Of a stretch of DNA of 64,000 nt, positions 49,565 through 63,330 are shown in pieces (the first letter of the stretch is position 1; every line of letters starts with the position of its first letter). The notes beneath the pieces were generated by a model. That model saw nothing but the letters and a program-made list of their open reading frames with translations. It made no database searches and was not told the DNA's origin. The translations under genes were made by a program, and so were the position numbers. Source of the stretch: an uncultured Nitrospirales bacterium (GTDB lineage: Bacteria; Nitrospirota; Nitrospiria; Nitrospirales; UBA8639); the NCBI GenBank assembly GCA_951812745.1, contig OX638327.1, positions 1,601,914-1,665,913 of the forward strand, written 5' to 3'.

Positions 49565-49897
49565 GCTCGACTTCCGTCAGCTTGCCCTCGACATTTTTCA
49601 TCGGGGGACGATCACAGATGGAGCCTCCGGCCGTCCCTGGCCGGGGGCTCAATTTTTTTAAACCCCGCCAGAGTATCCCCCGGCCCTCCTTCATTGCGTT
49701 TTTCTGGAACGGCCATTTGTGCTTCCTACCCACTCCAACGAGCCCAGACGGGTGGAGCGTCTCGATGGGCGGCACGTTTGCGCGCCGCGGCCCGATCCAT
49801 CAGAATAGGGAGCCCGGAGGCGAAGGGAGCGTTGTTTCGGGAGCAAGAGCGCCATCAGATGCTGCAATCCGGAAAGCGGCAAGAGGAGCACCCCGAC
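49565..49897. other. Intergenic stretch between NxrC-like and protease genes
   Basis: Contains the terminator at 49621-49660 and the ribosome binding site AGAGGAG at about 49882. No gene is supported; the protease frame can be read from 49694 but the lipoprotein signal starts at 49898. Confidence 0.5.
49621..49660 (+). terminator. Rho-independent terminator after the NxrC-like gene
   Basis: GAGCCTCCGGCC and GGCCGGGGGCTC form a twelve-base-pair stem with one G-U-type mismatch, followed by AATTTTTTT. Confidence 0.9.
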
Positions 49898-52069
49898 ATG
49901 TGCACGAAGACTGTATGCAAGCTCGCTCCTCTTCTCGTCATGCTGGCGCTGGCCGGGTGCGGCGGTCAGGGAAGGCTTCCTCTTGCGAGCGACTGGGAGA
50001 CCCCGGAGTACCGGGCGCAGGGCGGGCTCAGCCTCATCAAGGCCTCCTCGATGTACGCGCGAGGCGGGACCGGCAAGGGCATCACGGTTGGCTTGCTCGA
50101 CAGCGGGGCGACGCCCGACCATCCGGAGTTGACCGGGAAGTACGTGCTCGTCGCTAGCTTCAACGAGGGGATCGATCCACAGGATACCAATCTTGACAAT
50201 CGCGGGCACGGCACTCACGTTGCGGGAATCATCGCCGCCCGCAAGGACGGCGCCGGGATGCATGGGGTCGCCTATGAGGCCACGCTCGCGTCGTATGCCT
50301 TGGAGTTCGACGAGAACGACGACGTGGTGGACTCCGACCTGGGGCGCGCCATCGAAAATCTGCAAGCGCGCGAGGTCTGGATCGTCAACAATAGCTGGGG
50401 GAAGGTGGACGTCAACAAAAACAATATCTCGATCACGGTCACGGACGACGATTACCCCGAGGTCCAAGACCCAGCTACCTACTTCGAGCACAGTCTTCCC
50501 ATCTATAAAGATTACGTCAAAACCGGCGGTGTCCAGGTGTGGGGAGCCGGGAATAGTGCGTTGCCTGAAGTGAGCTTTCACGCCGGGCTGCCTCACCTCG
50601 TACCGGAACTGAAGCAGGGCTGGCTGGCCGTGGTGTCGGTCGGCCGGGATGGGGACCTGGCCTATTACTCCCAAAAATGCGGGGTCGCCGCTGCGTGGTG
50701 CCTGGCAGCGCCCGGAGGCGATAAAAGGGAGAACTACGGAATCTATTCCACCTTGCCCGAGCCCGAGCCCGGGGGCTATGGCCACTATCAAGGCACCTCC
50801 ATGGCGGCTCCGCAGGTGAGCGGCGCCCTGGCGGCCCTGAAGAGCATGTTCCCGAACCTGAAATTCCAGGAGGTCCGGGATCGGATCCTCGTCACGGCAA
50901 ACAAGACCGGCATTTATGCCGACCGCTCCATTTATGGGCAGGGGCTGCTTGACCTGGATGCGGCCTCACGACCGATCGGCGGCACCCTGTTCTCGCTGGG
51001 CCGGTATGACGATGGTCCCGTCGTCACCACGCGAGGCGCCCGGCTCTCCTTGCCCGCCGGGGCGGCATCCAGGTACTTGGCCGGCCGGGAGATCCTCGTT
51101 CTCGACCGCTATCAGCGCGCCCCCTTCCTGGTCCCGATCAGCCACTATGCCGATGCCGGCGGGGGCGTGCTGTCGATGCGAGACCTTGAGCTCATCGTCC
51201 CAAGGCGCACCTCGGCGGACGAAGGCGAAGCGCCGGCGCTGGCGCTCGCCGGTCAGGACTTCCAAGTCAGCGGCACGTCGAACGGCCCTTGGCTCCTTGG
51301 CGTCGGCCGGGGAGCCGGGCTCGTGGAAGGCTTTGCCAGTCTGGCCGGCAGTTCGCTGCCCCACGGTCATTTCCGCATGGCCCGGGACGCATTCGGCATG
51401 GCCTTCGGATTCACCTCGGAGGCGGGAGCATTCCACGCGAGCGCGGTCACGAATCCCGAGGCGACGAGCGGCTCCGGCCTTGGCGTCATGGGTTGGAGTC
51501 CGCGCTCCGTCCTGACGGCCTCGTTCGTCGGCCCGCAGGCGAGCTACGCGGTCGGCGCCTCCTTCGCCTCCGGTCTGAAAAGGCCCTCCGGCCTGAAGGG
51601 TACCGGCGTCTTTGCGCTGTCCGGCGACAGCGTCGATCTCGGCGTTCGTCGCACGCTCTTCACCAACGATGCGGTAAGGCTCGGACTGGAGAATCGGGTC
51701 ACCTATCTGGCTCCGAACGAGGGGGCGCTGCTCGCCTTGAACCATGCCCTCCTGACGACCGCGAAACTCGACCTCTCGATCAGCTTGACTCGCAGCGTGA
51801 CGTTGAATGCCAGCTTGTCGCTGGAGCGTCCCCTCGACTCGGGCGAAGCGCGGATTCGCGCCGCGCAACGCGTCGACGAAGAAGGTCGAATCGACTATGA
51901 CAACATCGTGATCGACCAGGGCGCCCTCCTCGAATTCGACCGGGTAGGCGTAAGCATGCGCTATCGGGGCGGCCCGGACTCGGTTTATGGCGCAGGGGTG
52001 GTGGCCGTCCGTGACGGCTTTGGCAGGACGCAGGCCATCGCAGGCGCACGGGCGGAGATCCGCTTCTGA
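49898..52069 (+). CDS. Subtilisin-like (S8) protease lipoprotein with C-terminal barrel-like region
   Basis: 723 residues from ATG 49898. A lipoprotein signal with lipobox LAGC is followed by an S8 domain: Asp in VGLLDSGATPDHPE (about 67), His in GHGTHVAGIIAA (about 105), oxyanion Asn region WGAGNS, and Ser in GTSMAAPQVSGALAAL (about 301). From about 400 to the end the chain alternates polar and hydrophobic residues with many glycines and ends in Phe (ARAEIRF), as outer-membrane beta-barrel proteins do. It resembles autotransporter subtilases, though a lipobox is unusual there. An upstream GTG/ATG frame was rejected. Confidence 0.85.
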   Translation: MCTKTVCKLAPLLVMLALAGCGGQGRLPLASDWETPEYRAQGGLSLIKASSMYARGGTGKGITVGLLDSGATPDHPELTGKYVLVASFNEGIDPQDTNLDNRGHGTHVAGIIAARKDGAGMHGVAYEATLASYALEFDENDDVVDSDLGRAIENLQAREVWIVNNSWGKVDVNKNNISITVTDDDYPEVQDPATYFEHSLPIYKDYVKTGGVQVWGAGNSALPEVSFHAGLPHLVPELKQGWLAVVSVGRDGDLAYYSQKCGVAAAWCLAAPGGDKRENYGIYSTLPEPEPGGYGHYQGTSMAAPQVSGALAALKSMFPNLKFQEVRDRILVTANKTGIYADRSIYGQGLLDLDAASRPIGGTLFSLGRYDDGPVVTTRGARLSLPAGAASRYLAGREILVLDRYQRAPFLVPISHYADAGGGVLSMRDLELIVPRRTSADEGEAPALALAGQDFQVSGTSNGPWLLGVGRGAGLVEGFASLAGSSLPHGHFRMARDAFGMAFGFTSEAGAFHASAVTNPEATSGSGLGVMGWSPRSVLTASFVGPQASYAVGASFASGLKRPSGLKGTGVFALSGDSVDLGVRRTLFTNDAVRLGLENRVTYLAPNEGALLALNHALLTTAKLDLSISLTRSVTLNASLSLERPLDSGEARIRAAQRVDEEGRIDYDNIVIDQGALLEFDRVGVSMRYRGGPDSVYGAGVVAVRDGFGRTQAIAGARAEIRF

Positions 52070-56790: not shown

Positions 56791-57222
56791 GATCCTGAAA
56801 GAAAGCCTTCCATCGGGCGCGATTCTCTTGCTCGAAGCGTTCGAGTCCCTCAACCAGGGCCGTCAACGGCACGACCTTGGCCGTCCTGTTGGGATGATTG
56901 ATCCGCGCAGTAGGGGTTGGTCTTTCCGGACTGACGTGGTCCGGTCACGGTGCCAGAGGGTATTGTTCCAACAGCTTGAACGGGCAGGGTATCATCTCAA
57001 GGTTGCTCCTGTCACATCACCTGATAAAAACCCCGATGACGCAAGCGAAATTTTTTGTTCCGTTCTTGGCCTCGGCGGGTTTTAGGGTGCCGGGACACTC
57101 TGCGACCCTGCGCCAGGAGTCTTCCGTCTCTCGCATCGAATTCAATCTCTATTGACTTTTTGTTTTAGCTAGACTAGTCTGATGTCTAGTCACTAAAAAC
57201 TTTTTAACATACTGGAGGTGGC
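56791..57222. other. Intergenic stretch at the left border of the accessory island
   Basis: No gene supported. The right third carries the promoter and operator at 57152-57191. GC content falls from here to the right, marking the transition to the lower-GC island. Confidence 0.4.
57152..57191 (+). promoter_or_regulatory. Promoter and inverted-repeat operator of the Phd/PIN pair
   Basis: TTGACT (57152-57157) may be a -35 box with a poor -10 TAGTCT 17 bases on. The palindrome AGACTAGTCT (57171-57180) and an inverted repeat GACTAG(N8)CTAGTC (57172-57191) overlap the start region, as expected for antitoxin autoregulation. Confidence 0.55.
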
Positions 57223-57483
57223 ATGACCAGGACATGGCAGGTGCAGGACGCCAAGGCGCGTTTCAGCGAGTTGCTCGAGACGAGCCTCGCTGAAGGACCG
57301 CAGGTTGTGACCAAACGGGGCGTGGAAGCAGCCGTGCTCGTCCCCATTGCTCAGTGGCGACGATTGGAGAAGATGGCCAGACCGGATCTCAAGGAATTGC
57401 TGCTTGCGCCGGAAGCACGCACGGATGCACTGACGCCGCCGCGTAAGAAGCATCGTCATCGGGTTTCGCCGACGTTCGAGTAA
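57223..57483 (+). CDS. Phd/YefM-family antitoxin
   Basis: 86 residues after TGGAGGTGGC. TWQVQDAKARFSELLETSLAEGPQVVTKRGVEAAVLVPIAQWRRLE is the antitoxin DNA-binding fold, with a basic C-terminal tail (RKKHRHR). It precedes the PIN toxin by four bases. Confidence 0.9.
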   Translation: MTRTWQVQDAKARFSELLETSLAEGPQVVTKRGVEAAVLVPIAQWRRLEKMARPDLKELLLAPEARTDALTPPRKKHRHRVSPTFE

Positions 57484-57487
57484 ATCC

Positions 57488-57904
57488 GTGTATCTTCTCG
57501 ACACAAACGTTGTTTCAGAATTGCGCCGGCGCAATCCACATAAGGGCGTCCTCAATTGGATTGCGGACGTACCCGCCGATCAACTTTTTCTATCCGCGGT
57601 GACGGTCGGAGAGATCCAGGCGGGTATCGAGATCGCCCGCGAGCAGGATGTCGCAAAAGCGGACGAGTTGGCGGCTTGGCTCGGCAGGGTGCTCGCCTCT
57701 TATAGCGTGTTGCCGATGGATGCGTCCGCGTTCAGGGAATGGGCGCGGCTCAAGCATCGACAGTCAGACACCCTGATGGAGGACGCCATGATCGCGGCAA
57801 CCGCCGTCGTGCACAGGCTCACGGTCGTGACCCGCAACGTGCGTGATTTCAGCCAACTCGGCGTGGCCTTGTTGAACCCATTCGAACATCTAAGAAAGGC
57901 GTAG
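57488..57904 (+). CDS. PIN-domain toxin (FitB/VapC type)
   Basis: 138 residues from GTG 57488. The acidic residues are in MYLLDTNVVSEL, FLSAVTVGEIQAGI, DTLMEDAMIAATA and TRNVRDFSQLGV. It is predicted to cleave RNA and to be held by the adjacent antitoxin. The pair is intact and lies at the edge of the restriction-like array. Confidence 0.92.
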   Translation: MYLLDTNVVSELRRRNPHKGVLNWIADVPADQLFLSAVTVGEIQAGIEIAREQDVAKADELAAWLGRVLASYSVLPMDASAFREWARLKHRQSDTLMEDAMIAATAVVHRLTVVTRNVRDFSQLGVALLNPFEHLRKA

Positions 57905-57930
57905 ACACTTTTGTAGACCAAGGAGATCAG

Positions 57931-58995
57931 GTGAAAAAGCTCACTGCCATTGACCTTTTCTCTGGATGTGGGGGTATGACGGTCGGTCTGAAAAGAGCTG
58001 GGTTCAAAGTGCTCGGCGCCGTGGAGGTTGATCCCCTATCCATTAGAACCTATCGGGCTAACCACAAGGATGTTGCGGTCTGGGAGACGGACATCAGAGA
58101 TTTAAAACCATCTGAAGTGAAGTCCACTTTGGGACTGCGGAAAGGGGATCTTGACCTCCTTACCGGTTGTCCCCCATGCCAGGGGTTTTCGACGATGCGG
58201 ACTTTAAACGGATCGTTTGTGGTCAACGACCCGCGCAACGATTTGTTGCTTGAATTTCTGCGGTTCGTGGAGGCACTGCGTCCTCGGACAGTAATGATGG
58301 AAAACGTCCCCGGACTCTCTGGAGATAAGAGATTCGCTTTTTTCTGTAGTCGAATGCAGGAGATCGGTTATTGGGATGGTCACCGCATCCTGAACGCTGC
58401 GGAATATAGAGTGCCACAACGCCGGCGGAGACTGATTTACCTGGCGGGTTTTCGGATGGAAATTCCGTTTGCAGAATGTGCACCGAAAGTAAAAATGGTT
58501 AAGGACGCCATCGGTTGCCTGCCTAAGGCTGGCGAAAGTAGCGATCCGGTTCATGACATGCCGGAAAAGCGCACATCACGGATCATGGGACTGATTCGGC
58601 GCATTCCTAAAGACGGTGGAAGTCGAACTGACCTTTCAGAGTCAGATCAACTCGACTGCCACAAACGCTGCAACGGTTTCAAAGACGTTTATGGCCGGAT
58701 GGCTTGGGGTGAGGTGGCCCCGACGCTCACTAGCGGATGCTTCAATCCTTCAAAAGGTCGATTCCTTCATCCCGAAGAGGATCGCGCGATCACTATGAGA
58801 GAGGCAGCGTTGTTACAGGGTTTGCCGCGCCGGTATAAGTTTCCGGATGTTGACAGTAAGATCGCCGTCGCTTGGATGATCGGGAATGCCCTGCCGCCAC
58901 CTTTTGCAACTGCCCACGCCAGAATGATCAAGAGGACCTTACTTCGTAACAACGGGACAGGACAGTCAAAGAAAAACCTTGCATATAGACCATGA
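57931..58995 (+). CDS. DNA (cytosine-5) methyltransferase
   Basis: 354 residues from GTG 57931 after AAGGAGAT. Motif I is DLFSGCGGMTVGL, motif IV GCPPCQGFS (catalytic Cys near 80), motif VI ENVPGL (near 123), motif VIII PQRRRRLIYLAG, motif IX PTLTSG and motif X MIGNALPP. The target recognition region (about 185-260) is short. It marks DNA with 5-methylcytosine and probably protects host DNA from the array's nucleases. Its stop overlaps the helicase start by four bases. Confidence 0.95.
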   Translation: MKKLTAIDLFSGCGGMTVGLKRAGFKVLGAVEVDPLSIRTYRANHKDVAVWETDIRDLKPSEVKSTLGLRKGDLDLLTGCPPCQGFSTMRTLNGSFVVNDPRNDLLLEFLRFVEALRPRTVMMENVPGLSGDKRFAFFCSRMQEIGYWDGHRILNAAEYRVPQRRRRLIYLAGFRMEIPFAECAPKVKMVKDAIGCLPKAGESSDPVHDMPEKRTSRIMGLIRRIPKDGGSRTDLSESDQLDCHKRCNGFKDVYGRMAWGEVAPTLTSGCFNPSKGRFLHPEEDRAITMREAALLQGLPRRYKFPDVDSKIAVAWMIGNALPPPFATAHARMIKRTLLRNNGTGQSKKNLAYRP

Positions 58996-61904
58996 ACATT
59001 GACCAGGTTTTACGGAACGAGTTGACAACTGATCAATACGCCGCCGCAGTTGACCCTGCGAGTGAAGTGCTTTGCCTGGCATGCGCTGGATCTGGCAAGT
59101 CACGGACATTGGCCTATCGGATCGCCAGACTCCTTGCGGAGGGTGTAGCGCCAGCAGGCATTGTAGCGTTCACGTTCACAGAAAAGGCGGCTGGTTCCAT
59201 TAAGCGTCGTGTTTCGCAGGCATTGTCGACCGCCAGGCTTGATCCCACTGTTATGGGGGCAATGTATATTGGGACCATCCACGCCTACTGTCAGCGCATC
59301 TTAGGAGACATGGACCCCATGTACCGCCAATTCGATGTACTTGATGAAAACCGGCTGAAGCTCTATTTGATTTCACGTTACCCCCAGTTGGGCATTCAGA
59401 AGTTTCGAAGCCGCGCAAAGGGCAACCGCTACTTCGAGACGATCAAGCAGACAGCAGACGCCTGGAAGACCGCCAATGATGAGTTATTGGATTTCGCTGC
59501 GGTTTCAGCAGAAGACTCGGAGCTCGGCGATTTGCTCGTGGGCATTCAGGAAAGTCTTCGGAATGACCAATATATAGATTTCTCTTTAATGATTCGGAAT
59601 GTGGTCGAAGCAATCCGAAAGAACGTGCCAGGGGTGAATAATGGCATCGGGCTGCTACGCCATCTTATGGTGGACGAGTACCAAGACGTGAATCCTTGTC
59701 AGGAAGAGTTGATCCGTCTGCTTAACGACCGATCGAAAACCCTTTTCGTGGTTGGGGATGACGATCAGTCGATCTATGCTTGGCGTGGAGCGGACGTGAG
59801 TAATATCCTTGAGTTCCAGCAACGATATCTGAACTGCAGTATACATACCCTGTCGAAGAACTTTCGGAGTACGGAACCGATTGTACAAGCCTCGGATGCT
59901 TTCGCTGCTGTAACCCTTGGCCCCAGTAGAATGCCCAAAGCTCCCACAGCTTCTATGAATCGGTCGCCTCAGGACTTCAGGGTGCTGTGGTTTCCCAACC
60001 GCAGGGCGGAGGCCGAGTGGGTCGCGGGCCGAATCCGCAACCTACTAGGAACGGCGTATGACGATAACGGAAGTGTCCGCGGATTGACACCCGCTGATTT
60101 TGCAGTGCTGATGCGGTCGACCCGAAAGAAAGAACAAGACGATACTCCAAGGCATACCGCTTTCACGGAGGCCATGGAGGCCATGGGAATTCCGTTCAGT
60201 CTAGAAGCTGGCGGCGGGCCTTTTGACCGACCGCAGACGGCGGTCCTGCGCAGCACCTTTGAGCTTCTTCGCAACACACCGATTGATCGGAATATTGTGC
60301 GTCAACACTTCGACACCGAAGTCTTGCCTGCGTACCCTGACGCAGATTTCAATAGATTGGTCCGGGTGCTCACCGACTGGAGCAATCGGATTCATCGCCC
60401 CCAAGGTTTGACGAGAATTCGGCTCTACCCGCAGCAACTCGTCTATCATCTCTTAGAAGCGTTCAATATCGCCCAGACGAACTTCGATGACGATACCATG
60501 CGGGACATCGGCTTGTTCAGCCGCATGATTTTGGATGTCGAAACCGTTTATATGAGCGTTGACTCCACACGACGCTTTACCGAGGTTCTTAACTTCCTGA
60601 ATAACGCAGCAGATACAGGATATGACGTGTCCACGGACGACGTCCTGCAGCGGCCGGACGTGGTCACGGTGGCCACCGTCCACAAAATGAAAGGGCTTGA
60701 GTTTCCCTGTGTGTTCGTCGTGGATGTGGAAGCGAACAGATTTCCCAGGAAAAGGAGCGGGTACTCGGGATTGTTGCCCGAGCGTGCCATGGCTCCGGCG
60801 ATCGATCGAGGTGCTTATCAAAGCACTCGCAATGAGGAAGCCAGGCTTTTTTATACGGCTTCGACACGTGCCGAAAGGTATCTCTACGTCAGCGGAACGG
60901 AAAAACTGCCAGGGGGCAAGAAGAAGGCCAGCCGATCGCCCTATGCCTTACAGTTCGCAACCCATCCAACTGTTGAGCAAGATCCTACGAACCTACCTGA
61001 CGGACTCACGCAAGCCTCTCCTCAGAGGAGAATCGAGGATGCGGATTATCCTACAAGCTTCTCTGAAATTCGATATTACCTTCAGTGCCCGAAAAGCTAT
61101 CAATTTCGGGAGAGGTATGGTCTCAATCCTGTTATTCCAGAAATGTTTGGATATGGGAAAACCGTCCACACATCCATCCAAAAACTTCATGAACTTTACC
61201 CTGACGCCTCGCCTAAACCCGAACAAGTCGAACCGGTGGTCTTGAACACATTCCATCTGAAGCATGTCCCCCCAAGCGGCGATCCTGTGAACCGGCCTGG
61301 TGCTTATGAAAACTCCAGAGAACGGGCCGTCGAGATCACTAAAAATTATGTCTCGGCATTCGGCGGTGATTTTGAGCGGGAGCGGCAGGTAGAGGCGGTC
61401 TTTGAGATTCCGGCCTCCAACTGTGTGATATCAGGTTCAATTGATCTCCTTCTTCATGAAGACAAAGCAGGAAACATTCTGAAGGCGGAGATCATCGACT
61501 TCAAAGCGATGGAGGGCGGAGAACACCCCGACACTAATGAAGATCTCGATTGGACCGAATTTGCCCTACAGGTGCAACTGTATGCCAGCGCGGCGGCTAA
61601 AATGTTGGGACAGAACGCAAGAACCGGTAGCGTACATCTCCTGAAGGACAATCAACGTGTTGAGGTCCCGGTTACCCAGGAAGCAATGGATGCTGCTCTT
61701 GCAAATGTCGAATGGGCGGTGGAAGGCATTCTTAAGTCGGATTTTCCGATGCGCCCGCATCGCGACAAATGCAAACAATGTGACTTCAGTTCAATATGTC
61801 CTCGTGTTCCTCAGAATTACGCGGTGTTGACCAACGTCCCACCTAAACTCCATCTGCCGGGTCACAAAGAAATGGTGCGTGCGTTCAGCCTGTATCAGGA
61901 ATAG
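58992..61904 (+). CDS. UvrD-like helicase fused to a PD-(D/E)XK nuclease domain with likely iron-sulfur cluster
   Basis: 970 residues. SF1 helicase motifs: Walker A CAGSGKSRTLAYRI, Ia FTFTEKAAGSIKRRV, II LMVDEYQDVNP, III VVGDDDQSIYAWRGAD, IV LSKNFRS, V VATVHKMKGLEFPCVFVVD and VI RLFYTASTRAERYLYV. The C-terminal RecB/AddB-type nuclease has YYLQCPKSYQF (about 697), SGSIDLLLHED, EIIDFKA (about 835) and QVQLYASA. The cysteine in YLQCP plus CKQCDFSSICP (about 926-936) gives four cysteines in the AddB/Cas4 iron-sulfur pattern. It is tightly coupled to the methyltransferase gene, so a role in restriction or processing of unmodified DNA is likely. Confidence 0.9.
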   Translation: MNIDQVLRNELTTDQYAAAVDPASEVLCLACAGSGKSRTLAYRIARLLAEGVAPAGIVAFTFTEKAAGSIKRRVSQALSTARLDPTVMGAMYIGTIHAYCQRILGDMDPMYRQFDVLDENRLKLYLISRYPQLGIQKFRSRAKGNRYFETIKQTADAWKTANDELLDFAAVSAEDSELGDLLVGIQESLRNDQYIDFSLMIRNVVEAIRKNVPGVNNGIGLLRHLMVDEYQDVNPCQEELIRLLNDRSKTLFVVGDDDQSIYAWRGADVSNILEFQQRYLNCSIHTLSKNFRSTEPIVQASDAFAAVTLGPSRMPKAPTASMNRSPQDFRVLWFPNRRAEAEWVAGRIRNLLGTAYDDNGSVRGLTPADFAVLMRSTRKKEQDDTPRHTAFTEAMEAMGIPFSLEAGGGPFDRPQTAVLRSTFELLRNTPIDRNIVRQHFDTEVLPAYPDADFNRLVRVLTDWSNRIHRPQGLTRIRLYPQQLVYHLLEAFNIAQTNFDDDTMRDIGLFSRMILDVETVYMSVDSTRRFTEVLNFLNNAADTGYDVSTDDVLQRPDVVTVATVHKMKGLEFPCVFVVDVEANRFPRKRSGYSGLLPERAMAPAIDRGAYQSTRNEEARLFYTASTRAERYLYVSGTEKLPGGKKKASRSPYALQFATHPTVEQDPTNLPDGLTQASPQRRIEDADYPTSFSEIRYYLQCPKSYQFRERYGLNPVIPEMFGYGKTVHTSIQKLHELYPDASPKPEQVEPVVLNTFHLKHVPPSGDPVNRPGAYENSRERAVEITKNYVSAFGGDFERERQVEAVFEIPASNCVISGSIDLLLHEDKAGNILKAEIIDFKAMEGGEHPDTNEDLDWTEFALQVQLYASAAAKMLGQNARTGSVHLLKDNQRVEVPVTQEAMDAALANVEWAVEGILKSDFPMRPHRDKCKQCDFSSICPRVPQNYAVLTNVPPKLHLPGHKEMVRAFSLYQE

Positions 61905-61911
61905 TGACGAT

Positions 61912-62328
61912 ATGCCGGATAACCTGACCCCCGAGCAGAGGAGCTACTGCATGTCCAGTATCAAAGGGAAGGATACAGGACCCGAGACCCGCGTGCGCTC
62001 GGAACTTCACAAGAGAGGCTTTAGGTTTCGCAAGCACCTCAAAGAGTTGCCTGGCCAGCCGGACGTCGTTTTTACTAAGGCCAAGGTGGCCGTTTTTATC
62101 GACGGCGACTTTTGGCACGGTTACAGGTTCCCAACATGGGAACACAAGGTTTCGGCTTTCTGGAAAACGAAAATTTCTAAAAACCGAGAAAGGGATGCAA
62201 GAAATCACCGTCGGCTCCGTGATATGGGATGGAAAGTGATTCGTCTGTGGCAGCACGACCTGGAACGAGACTTTAGGGAGAGTATCGAAAAAGTTGTCTC
62301 CTCACTGAAAATAGAGATTACTGAGTGA
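61912..62328 (+). CDS. vsr: Very short patch repair (Vsr) endonuclease
   Basis: 138 residues from ATG 61912. MSSIKGKDTGPETRVRSELHKRGFRFRKH is the Vsr opening and VAVFIDGDFWHGYRFP carries the catalytic Asp and His. WKTKISKNRERDARNHRRLRDMGWKVIRLW completes the fold. Vsr nicks T:G mismatches created by deamination of 5-methylcytosine at the partner methylase sites. It starts seven bases after the helicase gene, so one transcript is likely. Confidence 0.95.
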   Translation: MPDNLTPEQRSYCMSSIKGKDTGPETRVRSELHKRGFRFRKHLKELPGQPDVVFTKAKVAVFIDGDFWHGYRFPTWEHKVSAFWKTKISKNRERDARNHRRLRDMGWKVIRLWQHDLERDFRESIEKVVSSLKIEITE

Positions 62329-62423
62329 TTGCAAACAATTAGTTGAGTGCCAAGACACCTAAGCTCGGCGAACTGACAGACAATTGAGGACGCGACACTA
62401 TGGCAAGTACCGGCTGATAGCAA

Positions 62424-63281
62424 ATGGCGCGGAATTGGTCCTACAGCGAAATCAATGCCATCGTCGGAGATTACTTCGATATGCTCAGATATGAGCAGGC
62501 AGGAAGGGTTTTCAATAAGACCGAGCACCGGCGTGTCCTCATGAAAACAATTGGTCGTTCCGAGGGATCGATCGATCGCAAACATATGAATATCAGTGCG
62601 GTCATGGTTGCCCTAGGCCTGCCTTACATTGACGGGTACAAGCCATATACAAATTACCAGAAGGCGCTGTTTGAGGCGGTTGAAGCCCGCCTCGGCAAGG
62701 ATCATGATCTTCATGCACTTCTGACTGGGGAAGCCGTAGATGCAGTGCGCGCACCATTGGAAACCCTGGTCGGGCCTAAACTGGTCTTCGACGATGCACC
62801 GCCGCCACGTGAGCCGTCGGAACAGAATGTACCTGAAGATATTGACCGTATTGTCCGCAGGTTCGAACCACCAGCCGAGCGTGATGCCCGGAATCGGCAA
62901 CTCGGAAAAGCTGGCGAAGCGTTTGTCTTCGAGGTAGAAAGGCGACGTCTCAACGAGCTTGGCCGGAAAGACTTATCCGACCGTGTCCACTGGGTTGCCA
63001 GGGATGAAGGCGATGGCTATGGATATGACATCCTGTCGTTCGATGGAATCGGCGACGATGCCGAGCGAGAGCGCTGGCTGGAGATCAAGACGACGAATGG
63101 TCCTAGGACTACCCCTTTTTTCATCACCAAGAATGAGTTGTGCGTCTCCGAGGAACGCCCCGATGTCTTTAGGCTCGTCAGGCTATACGATTTCCAGCGG
63201 CAGGTGCGAGCCTACTGCCTGAAGCCACCTCTGGATGAACAAGTTTGGCTTTCGCCGACGATCTACAGGGCGTCTCTTTAG
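62424..63281 (+). CDS. DUF3883 protein, probable restriction endonuclease component
   Basis: 285 residues. The N-terminal part (WSYSEINAIVGDYFDMLRYE, SEGSIDRKHMNISAVMVALGLPYIDGYKP) is a domain found at the start of several restriction-endonuclease-like proteins. The C-terminal DUF3883 domain has LGKAGEAFVFEVERRRL, GYGYDILSFDG and WLEIKTTNG, a PD-(D/E)XK-like layout (E..., D, ExK). It is predicted to bind and cut DNA that lacks the cognate methylation. It follows vsr after 95 bases on the same strand. Confidence 0.8.
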   Translation: MARNWSYSEINAIVGDYFDMLRYEQAGRVFNKTEHRRVLMKTIGRSEGSIDRKHMNISAVMVALGLPYIDGYKPYTNYQKALFEAVEARLGKDHDLHALLTGEAVDAVRAPLETLVGPKLVFDDAPPPREPSEQNVPEDIDRIVRRFEPPAERDARNRQLGKAGEAFVFEVERRRLNELGRKDLSDRVHWVARDEGDGYGYDILSFDGIGDDAERERWLEIKTTNGPRTTPFFITKNELCVSEERPDVFRLVRLYDFQRQVRAYCLKPPLDEQVWLSPTIYRASL

Positions 63282-63330
63282 ATCCTACCCCCTAAATGAC
63301 AGGGGAGGGTTCCTTTAACCGGCCGGTGGC

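Follow-up and report, generated by a model that had tools for sequence, protein, structure and literature searches.

Four genes that combine DNA methylation, DNA unwinding and DNA cutting lie together near the end of the window, the whole stretch of 64,000 nucleotides from an uncultured Nitrospirales bacterium analysed here, and the question that they raise is whether they form a defence system and, if so, of which kind. An earlier note on this DNA had described them as a candidate undescribed restriction or defence system. The ORFs of the region bore out its four same-strand genes in their coordinates and spacing (a 4-bp overlap, then a 7-bp gap, then a 95-bp gap), all of them open and intact at the window's end, and profile matches agreed with the families that it had named, a 5mC methylase, a UvrD helicase with a PD-(D/E)XK nuclease (UvrD-helicase 2.2e-54, PDDEXK_1 1.2e-21), a Vsr and a DUF3883 protein. 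The features of the locus are:

57223..57904, + strand: Phd/YefM antitoxin and PIN (VapC) toxin, resident and outside the insertion (family matches; congener comparison)
57905..63295, no strand: inserted block, beginning immediately past the resident PIN gene and ending ahead of the sequence that flanks fdx (congeners L122, L123, L124)
57931..58995, + strand: 5-methylcytosine DNA methyltransferase, 354 aa (PF00145 5.8e-57; PADLOC MTase_II 1.1e-80; PCQ, ENV and QRRRR motifs)
58992..61904, + strand: UvrD-like SF1A helicase with a C-terminal AddB/Cas4-like PD-(D/E)XK nuclease, 970 aa (families, motifs, AlphaFold model)
61912..62328, + strand: Vsr mismatch endonuclease (PF03852 1.2e-27; TIGR00632 above cut-off; alignment to 1cw0)
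62424..63281, + strand: DUF3883/NOV_C PD-(D/E)XK-like protein (PF13020 3.7e-17; PADLOC PDC-S36 2.7e-100)

The GC content of the four block genes (0.50-0.54) was lower than that of the flanking genes (0.58-0.62), as had been claimed, and the distance from bipA to the isc ferredoxin gene was 6.5 kb here compared with 0.1-1.8 kb in congeners carrying both genes on one contig. The block was absent from 13 congeners. Kin of the window's genome include genomes with helicases identical to those of Nitrospira sp. ACE_NIT7 (same order) and Nitrospirae bacterium J017 (same family), which points to a probable place in the Nitrospirales. In L122 and L123, bipA is followed by a Phd/PIN pair of about 90-92% DNA identity and then directly by the ferredoxin flank, and the edges of the block were therefore placed at about 57905 and 63295. 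The insertion is thus one piece of approximately 5.4 kb between bipA and the fdx/isc operon; it contains the four block genes and nothing else, and the Phd/PIN pair was there beforehand. The toxin-antitoxin pair, with which the earlier note had let the island begin, was consequently rejected as a part of it, being resident in these two block-free congeners and older than the insertion. No integrase or transposase was found at the insertion within the window, the search for direct or inverted repeats at its edges gave chance-level matches only, and promoter and terminator scans of the block yielded nothing exceeding shuffled sequences.

The bipA-fdx interval (56854-63330 of the window) varies within the genus, with small cargo that differs between congeners, and is perhaps a minor integration hot spot. 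A large subtilisin/autotransporter-like ORF (49694-52069) lies upstream of the block.

The largest of the four proteins was modelled with AlphaFold from 67 sequences, giving a confident structure (pLDDT 89.8, pTM 0.89), an earlier model from 12 sequences having been poor (pLDDT 66.8). Over residues 1-671 the model resembles UvrD/PcrA/Rep (Z 35-37, with an rmsd of about 2.7 for some 465 residues), and AddAB and AdnAB chains cover most of the modelled protein, with a large whole-length rmsd because the domains move. The model thus presents the helicase-nuclease as an AddA-like single-chain motor. Its helicase DEYQD motif and the nuclease residues D818...D836xK838 are invariant or nearly so: Walker A K36, the DE pair at 228-229, nuclease D818 and K838, and Cys699, 927, 930 and 936 are invariant in 30 aligned relatives, and D836 is D in 29 of them and E in one. 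The four invariant cysteines of the nuclease domain probably hold a 4Fe-4S cluster, and the protein is predicted to be active as both helicase and nuclease.

The conservation of the block was followed through the helicase. A four-sequence helicase alignment was used to scan 84,980 species genomes and the best 80 relatives were retained, 40 of them (the close set) having 43-81% identity along the whole helicase or a part of it and the other 40 (the distant set) about 30%. The close helicases span about 13 phyla, one archaeal MAG included. A clustered 5mC methylase was present at 36 of the 40 close loci and at 2 of the 40 distant ones (Fisher p 1.5e-15), as counted by eye from neighbourhood tables of loci that are not phylogenetically independent. 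In the close clusters the methylase was nearly always the adjacent gene, and 4-bp overlaps recur in four relatives (L015, L028, L030, L034). A helicase tree made with a quick method contained one strongly supported branch of 33 rows, with the methylase in 30 of them, and methylase and helicase distances were correlated (Spearman 0.82, Mantel p 0.0005, n=30); the correlation between Vsr and helicase distances was weaker (Spearman 0.38, n=19). Methylase and helicase truly form a conserved module, in which the two proteins co-diverge, and the earlier description of a linked, horizontally acquired, R-M-like cassette was borne out with these two genes as its conserved pair.

The reverse association fails. 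Methylases of the same phylum that are 48-66% identical to that of the window adjoin a GHKL ATPase gene, another ATPase gene or Vsr, and no helicase was seen beside them within the approximately 1.5 kb of flank visible. The proposed syntenic co-occurrence therefore holds from the side of the helicase, as close helicases rarely lack the methylase, but not from that of the methylase, whose close homologues often lack the helicase. When a close BREX-borne helicase was used as a DNA query against E. coli genomes, no match was obtained, and a plasmid search for the helicase returned one distant match only.

The protein of the fourth gene corresponds to the PADLOC candidate PDC-S36. It had been proposed as a member of the block, and as a general component it was rejected: no match to DUF3883 was found in loci L008-L091, it was in 0 of the 40 close relatives, and it was missing from the genomes of 27 of 28 relatives, the single match lying on another contig. 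A Mu-like phage contig (L168:166-3504) carries the same helicase-nuclease and, about 10 bp further on, a 38%-identical DUF3883 protein. A DUF3883 query of viral contigs by a short-peptide route found no relative, which is a weak negative since L168 holds one. DUF3883 relatives were present on 1196 plasmid records, and the cassette was in none of the four examples inspected. DUF3883 is therefore a rare add-on and possible accessory, with its linkage to the helicase observed twice, in the window and in L168.

Roughly half of the 40 close loci have a clustered Vsr. In L032 and L060 it is joined to the methylase as a C-terminal fusion and in the distant L050 as an N-terminal one, and only Vsr remnants were seen in L014 and L027. 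In L020, L021 and L022 its place is taken by a HhH-GPD/Fe-S protein of 224-249 aa, which in L021 matches the G-T repair enzyme Mig (1kea, 1e-24) and MutY (2e-28). The HhH motif carries a Tyr in all three, at the residue that is Lys in endonuclease III and Ser in MutY. About 15 of the 40 close relatives had neither a recognised Vsr nor a recognised glycosylase. A repair-type partner is common, whether as Vsr, as a Vsr-methylase fusion or as a MutY/Mig-type glycosylase instead.

The Vsr of the window retains the active site in the alignment to 1cw0 (E25, D51, D64, H69 and D95, the last being the equivalent of D97), and the H64-to-D change occurs in functional Neisseria Vsr proteins. Residues M14, F67 and W68, which we take to be the mismatch-wedge positions of Vsr, are also retained. 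In contrast, C66, H71, C73 and C117 of the E. coli protein, presumably its zinc-binding Cys/His residues in a family in which we assume the zinc site not to be universal, are replaced by D, Y, F and H; this loss lowers the likeness to E. coli Vsr, although the window protein still passes the family cut-off. All four zinc-ligand positions are gone, with the active site kept, in the Vsr proteins of the window, L012, L015-L017, L043 and L045.

Several of the relatives lie within or beside known defence operons. In L012-L015 and L017 (77-81% identity) the cassette is directly 3' of BrxL, with PglZ preceding, and it is also directly 3' of BrxL in L084, as judged from the portion on its contig. Extended sequence of L015 showed BrxA-BrxB-BrxC-PglX upstream, which makes it a type-1 BREX; BrxC in L013 and PglX in L014 and L017 were identified by profile, and L013 and L014 show like-sized genes in the same order. 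Altogether, seven of the nine closest relatives have a BREX setting: six close a type-1 BREX operon at its 3' end, and L045 lies inside a type-3 BREX operon, where the cassette sits between PglXI and the BrxH helicase. Immediately before the cassette in L045 (6285-6665), 126 aa of the PglXI C-terminus are present a second time, as if they were an insertion remnant. Elsewhere, DISARM genes were found near the cassette in L028, L030 and L039, type III Mod/Res beside L038 and L044, Mod-like methylases at L009 and L011, and HerA with a NurA-like protein near L026. In three IMG/VR contigs the cassette was beside a phage tail gene (L167), a Mu-like transposase (L168) and an integrase (L169). In L018, Vsr, methylase and helicase genes are followed by a GHKL ATPase gene, forming a junction with MORC-type R-M. 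No PglZ was found in the whole genome of the window (one contig, 2.35 Mb).

On balance, the locus is probably a mobile 5mC-based R-M-like cassette, with the ATP-dependent helicase-nuclease as its effector and Vsr as a repair enzyme. We favour this reading because the methylase clusters with close rather than distant helicases and their distances correlate, because relatives adjoin type-1 and type-3 BREX, DISARM, type III R-M, HerA and prophage genes, and because the catalytic residues of the helicase and the nuclease are invariant. The methylase would mark a short host motif, and the helicase-nuclease, a product of the same operon, would load onto foreign DNA and unwind it using ATP while the Fe-S PD-(D/E)XK domain cut the displaced strand or strands. 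Methylated sites would hold the helicase-nuclease off or fail to recruit it, and the recognition of unmethylated DNA may depend on the methylase, on Vsr, or on ends or nicks. DNA degradation of this kind would protect the host from phage. Vsr itself would repair the T:G mismatches that arise from 5mC deamination and would not be the restriction enzyme, and DUF3883 may be an extra nuclease taken up along with the block. Vsr was read as a repair enzyme because a glycosylase suits T:G repair and is an unlikely stand-in for a nicking restriction enzyme. Some observations speak against the R-M-like reading. No source of sequence specificity is visible for the helicase-nuclease, and UvrD/AddA-type motors normally require an end or a nick. 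Close methylase homologues operate elsewhere without this helicase, both repair partners are missing from about 15 of the 40 relatives, and BREX loci already hold another modification system, which makes an accessory or repair role possible.

It is unlikely that Vsr instead initiates restriction by nicking unmethylated or hemimethylated sites, at which the UvrD helicase-nuclease would load and degrade the strand. UvrD does follow MutH in mismatch repair, and motors of its type load at nicks. The helicase often has Vsr for a neighbour, in some loci Vsr forms a fusion with the methylase, the window protein belongs to the clade lacking the zinc-ligand positions, and loss of a cytosine methylase in Caulobacter makes a Vsr-like protein trigger an SOS response. 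Nevertheless, the active site and the mismatch wedge are retained, Vsr distances track the helicase only weakly (0.38 vs 0.82), and Vsr is exchanged for a glycosylase in three relatives, with about 15 relatives showing no recognised substitute for it. As Vsr and the glycosylase are repair enzymes, and the modelled architecture resembles AddAB/AdnAB, the entire locus might be a DNA-repair module in which the helicase-nuclease processed breaks or nicks from the repair of deaminated 5mC or at stalled forks, and the methylase were an orphan regulator; an ancillary, repair-like role for UvrD-Cas4 loci was also considered in passages of Hudaiberdiev et al. 2017 (PMC5704561). The patchy spread across phyla, carriage by prophages and absence from 13 congeners are features of defence rather than of housekeeping repair, and sites beside BREX, DISARM and type III R-M are typical of defence, making this explanation quite improbable. 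The BREX-associated positions of seven of the nine closest relatives, and the lack of PglZ in the genome of the window, would agree with a layer accessory to BREX/DISARM-like systems, left alone here and perhaps non-functional without its partners. Most other members of the clade have no BREX genes in view, and here all genes are intact with, by their sequences, conserved catalytic residues, so we regard such a stranded layer as very unlikely.

If the R-M-like reading is followed further, the cassette may tentatively represent a separate R-M type, although we lean slightly against this: a 5mC methylase plus a single-chain AddA-like restriction subunit, portable between phyla, serving as a second effector in BREX/DISARM and equipped with interchangeable T:G repair safeguards. 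Were the helicase-nuclease the restriction subunit, this would be an ATP-dependent DNA restriction unlike types I-IV, and some orphan-looking Dcm/Vsr pairs would have gained a partner for attack. The recurrence of the cassette within BREX operons hints at a second effector that comes ready-made for systems whose killing step remains debated, and comparative genomics alone, through the replacement of Vsr by a MutY/Mig-type glycosylase, tells the repair component apart from the attacking one.

Among known systems, type II R-M with Vsr (Dcm/Vsr and the Neisseria V. proteins) has a 5mC methylase and Vsr sharing an operon as they do here, whereas in the block an ATP-dependent helicase-nuclease replaces the simple type II endonuclease of known kind; no sequence-specific ATP-independent endonuclease was recognised among the block genes besides Vsr and DUF3883. 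MORC/GHKL-ATPase R-M has methylases 58-66% identical to that of the window, adjoining GHKL ATPase genes (L131-L133), but its effector ATPase is a different one and no UvrD-nuclease was seen at those loci. The earlier statement that the block is not Gabija, BREX, DISARM or Zorya agrees with its gene content. BREX types 1 and 3 and DISARM house or adjoin the cassette in close relatives, but BrxC, PglZ, PglX, DrmA and DrmB are all absent from the block (DrmA and DrmB as judged among the matches listed for its genes) and the effector is unrelated. Gabija GajB, AddAB and AdnAB share the SF1A UvrD-type motor, and AddA/AdnA also the C-terminal nuclease architecture that the model gives to the window protein. 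GajB, however, lacks such a nuclease domain and partners GajA (OLD ATPase-TOPRIM), of which none was found among the block genes, whereas the window helicase carries its own nuclease; AddAB and AdnAB, for their part, are repair enzymes of two subunits and have no methylase.

The claim that the association was undescribed did not survive comparison with Hudaiberdiev et al. 2017 (PMC5704561), whose passages on UvrD-Cas4 report UvrD fused to a four-Cys Cas4-like PD-(D/E)XK domain, as in the window, with an adjacent Dcm-type methylase and, in several loci, Vsr, also as here; defence was predicted for them, and a sister context of the fusion with type III Mod/Res was reported separately, matching what was found here beside L038 and L044 and, with Mod-like methylases, at L009 and L011. 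The likeness to these loci is one of description, the helicase clade of the window having been built from independently found loci. Those same passages contain no BREX embedding, glycosylase replacement, DUF3883, name or test, the main text of a 2026 BREX survey makes no mention of UvrD, Vsr or 5mC, and no named system with this gene content was found in the openly accessible literature. Therefore, the locus belongs to a described but unnamed kind whose basic pairing, as those passages record, was noticed in 2017; what looks new is its placement within BREX and the exchange of Vsr for a glycosylase, and the precise insertion is also counted among the new parts.
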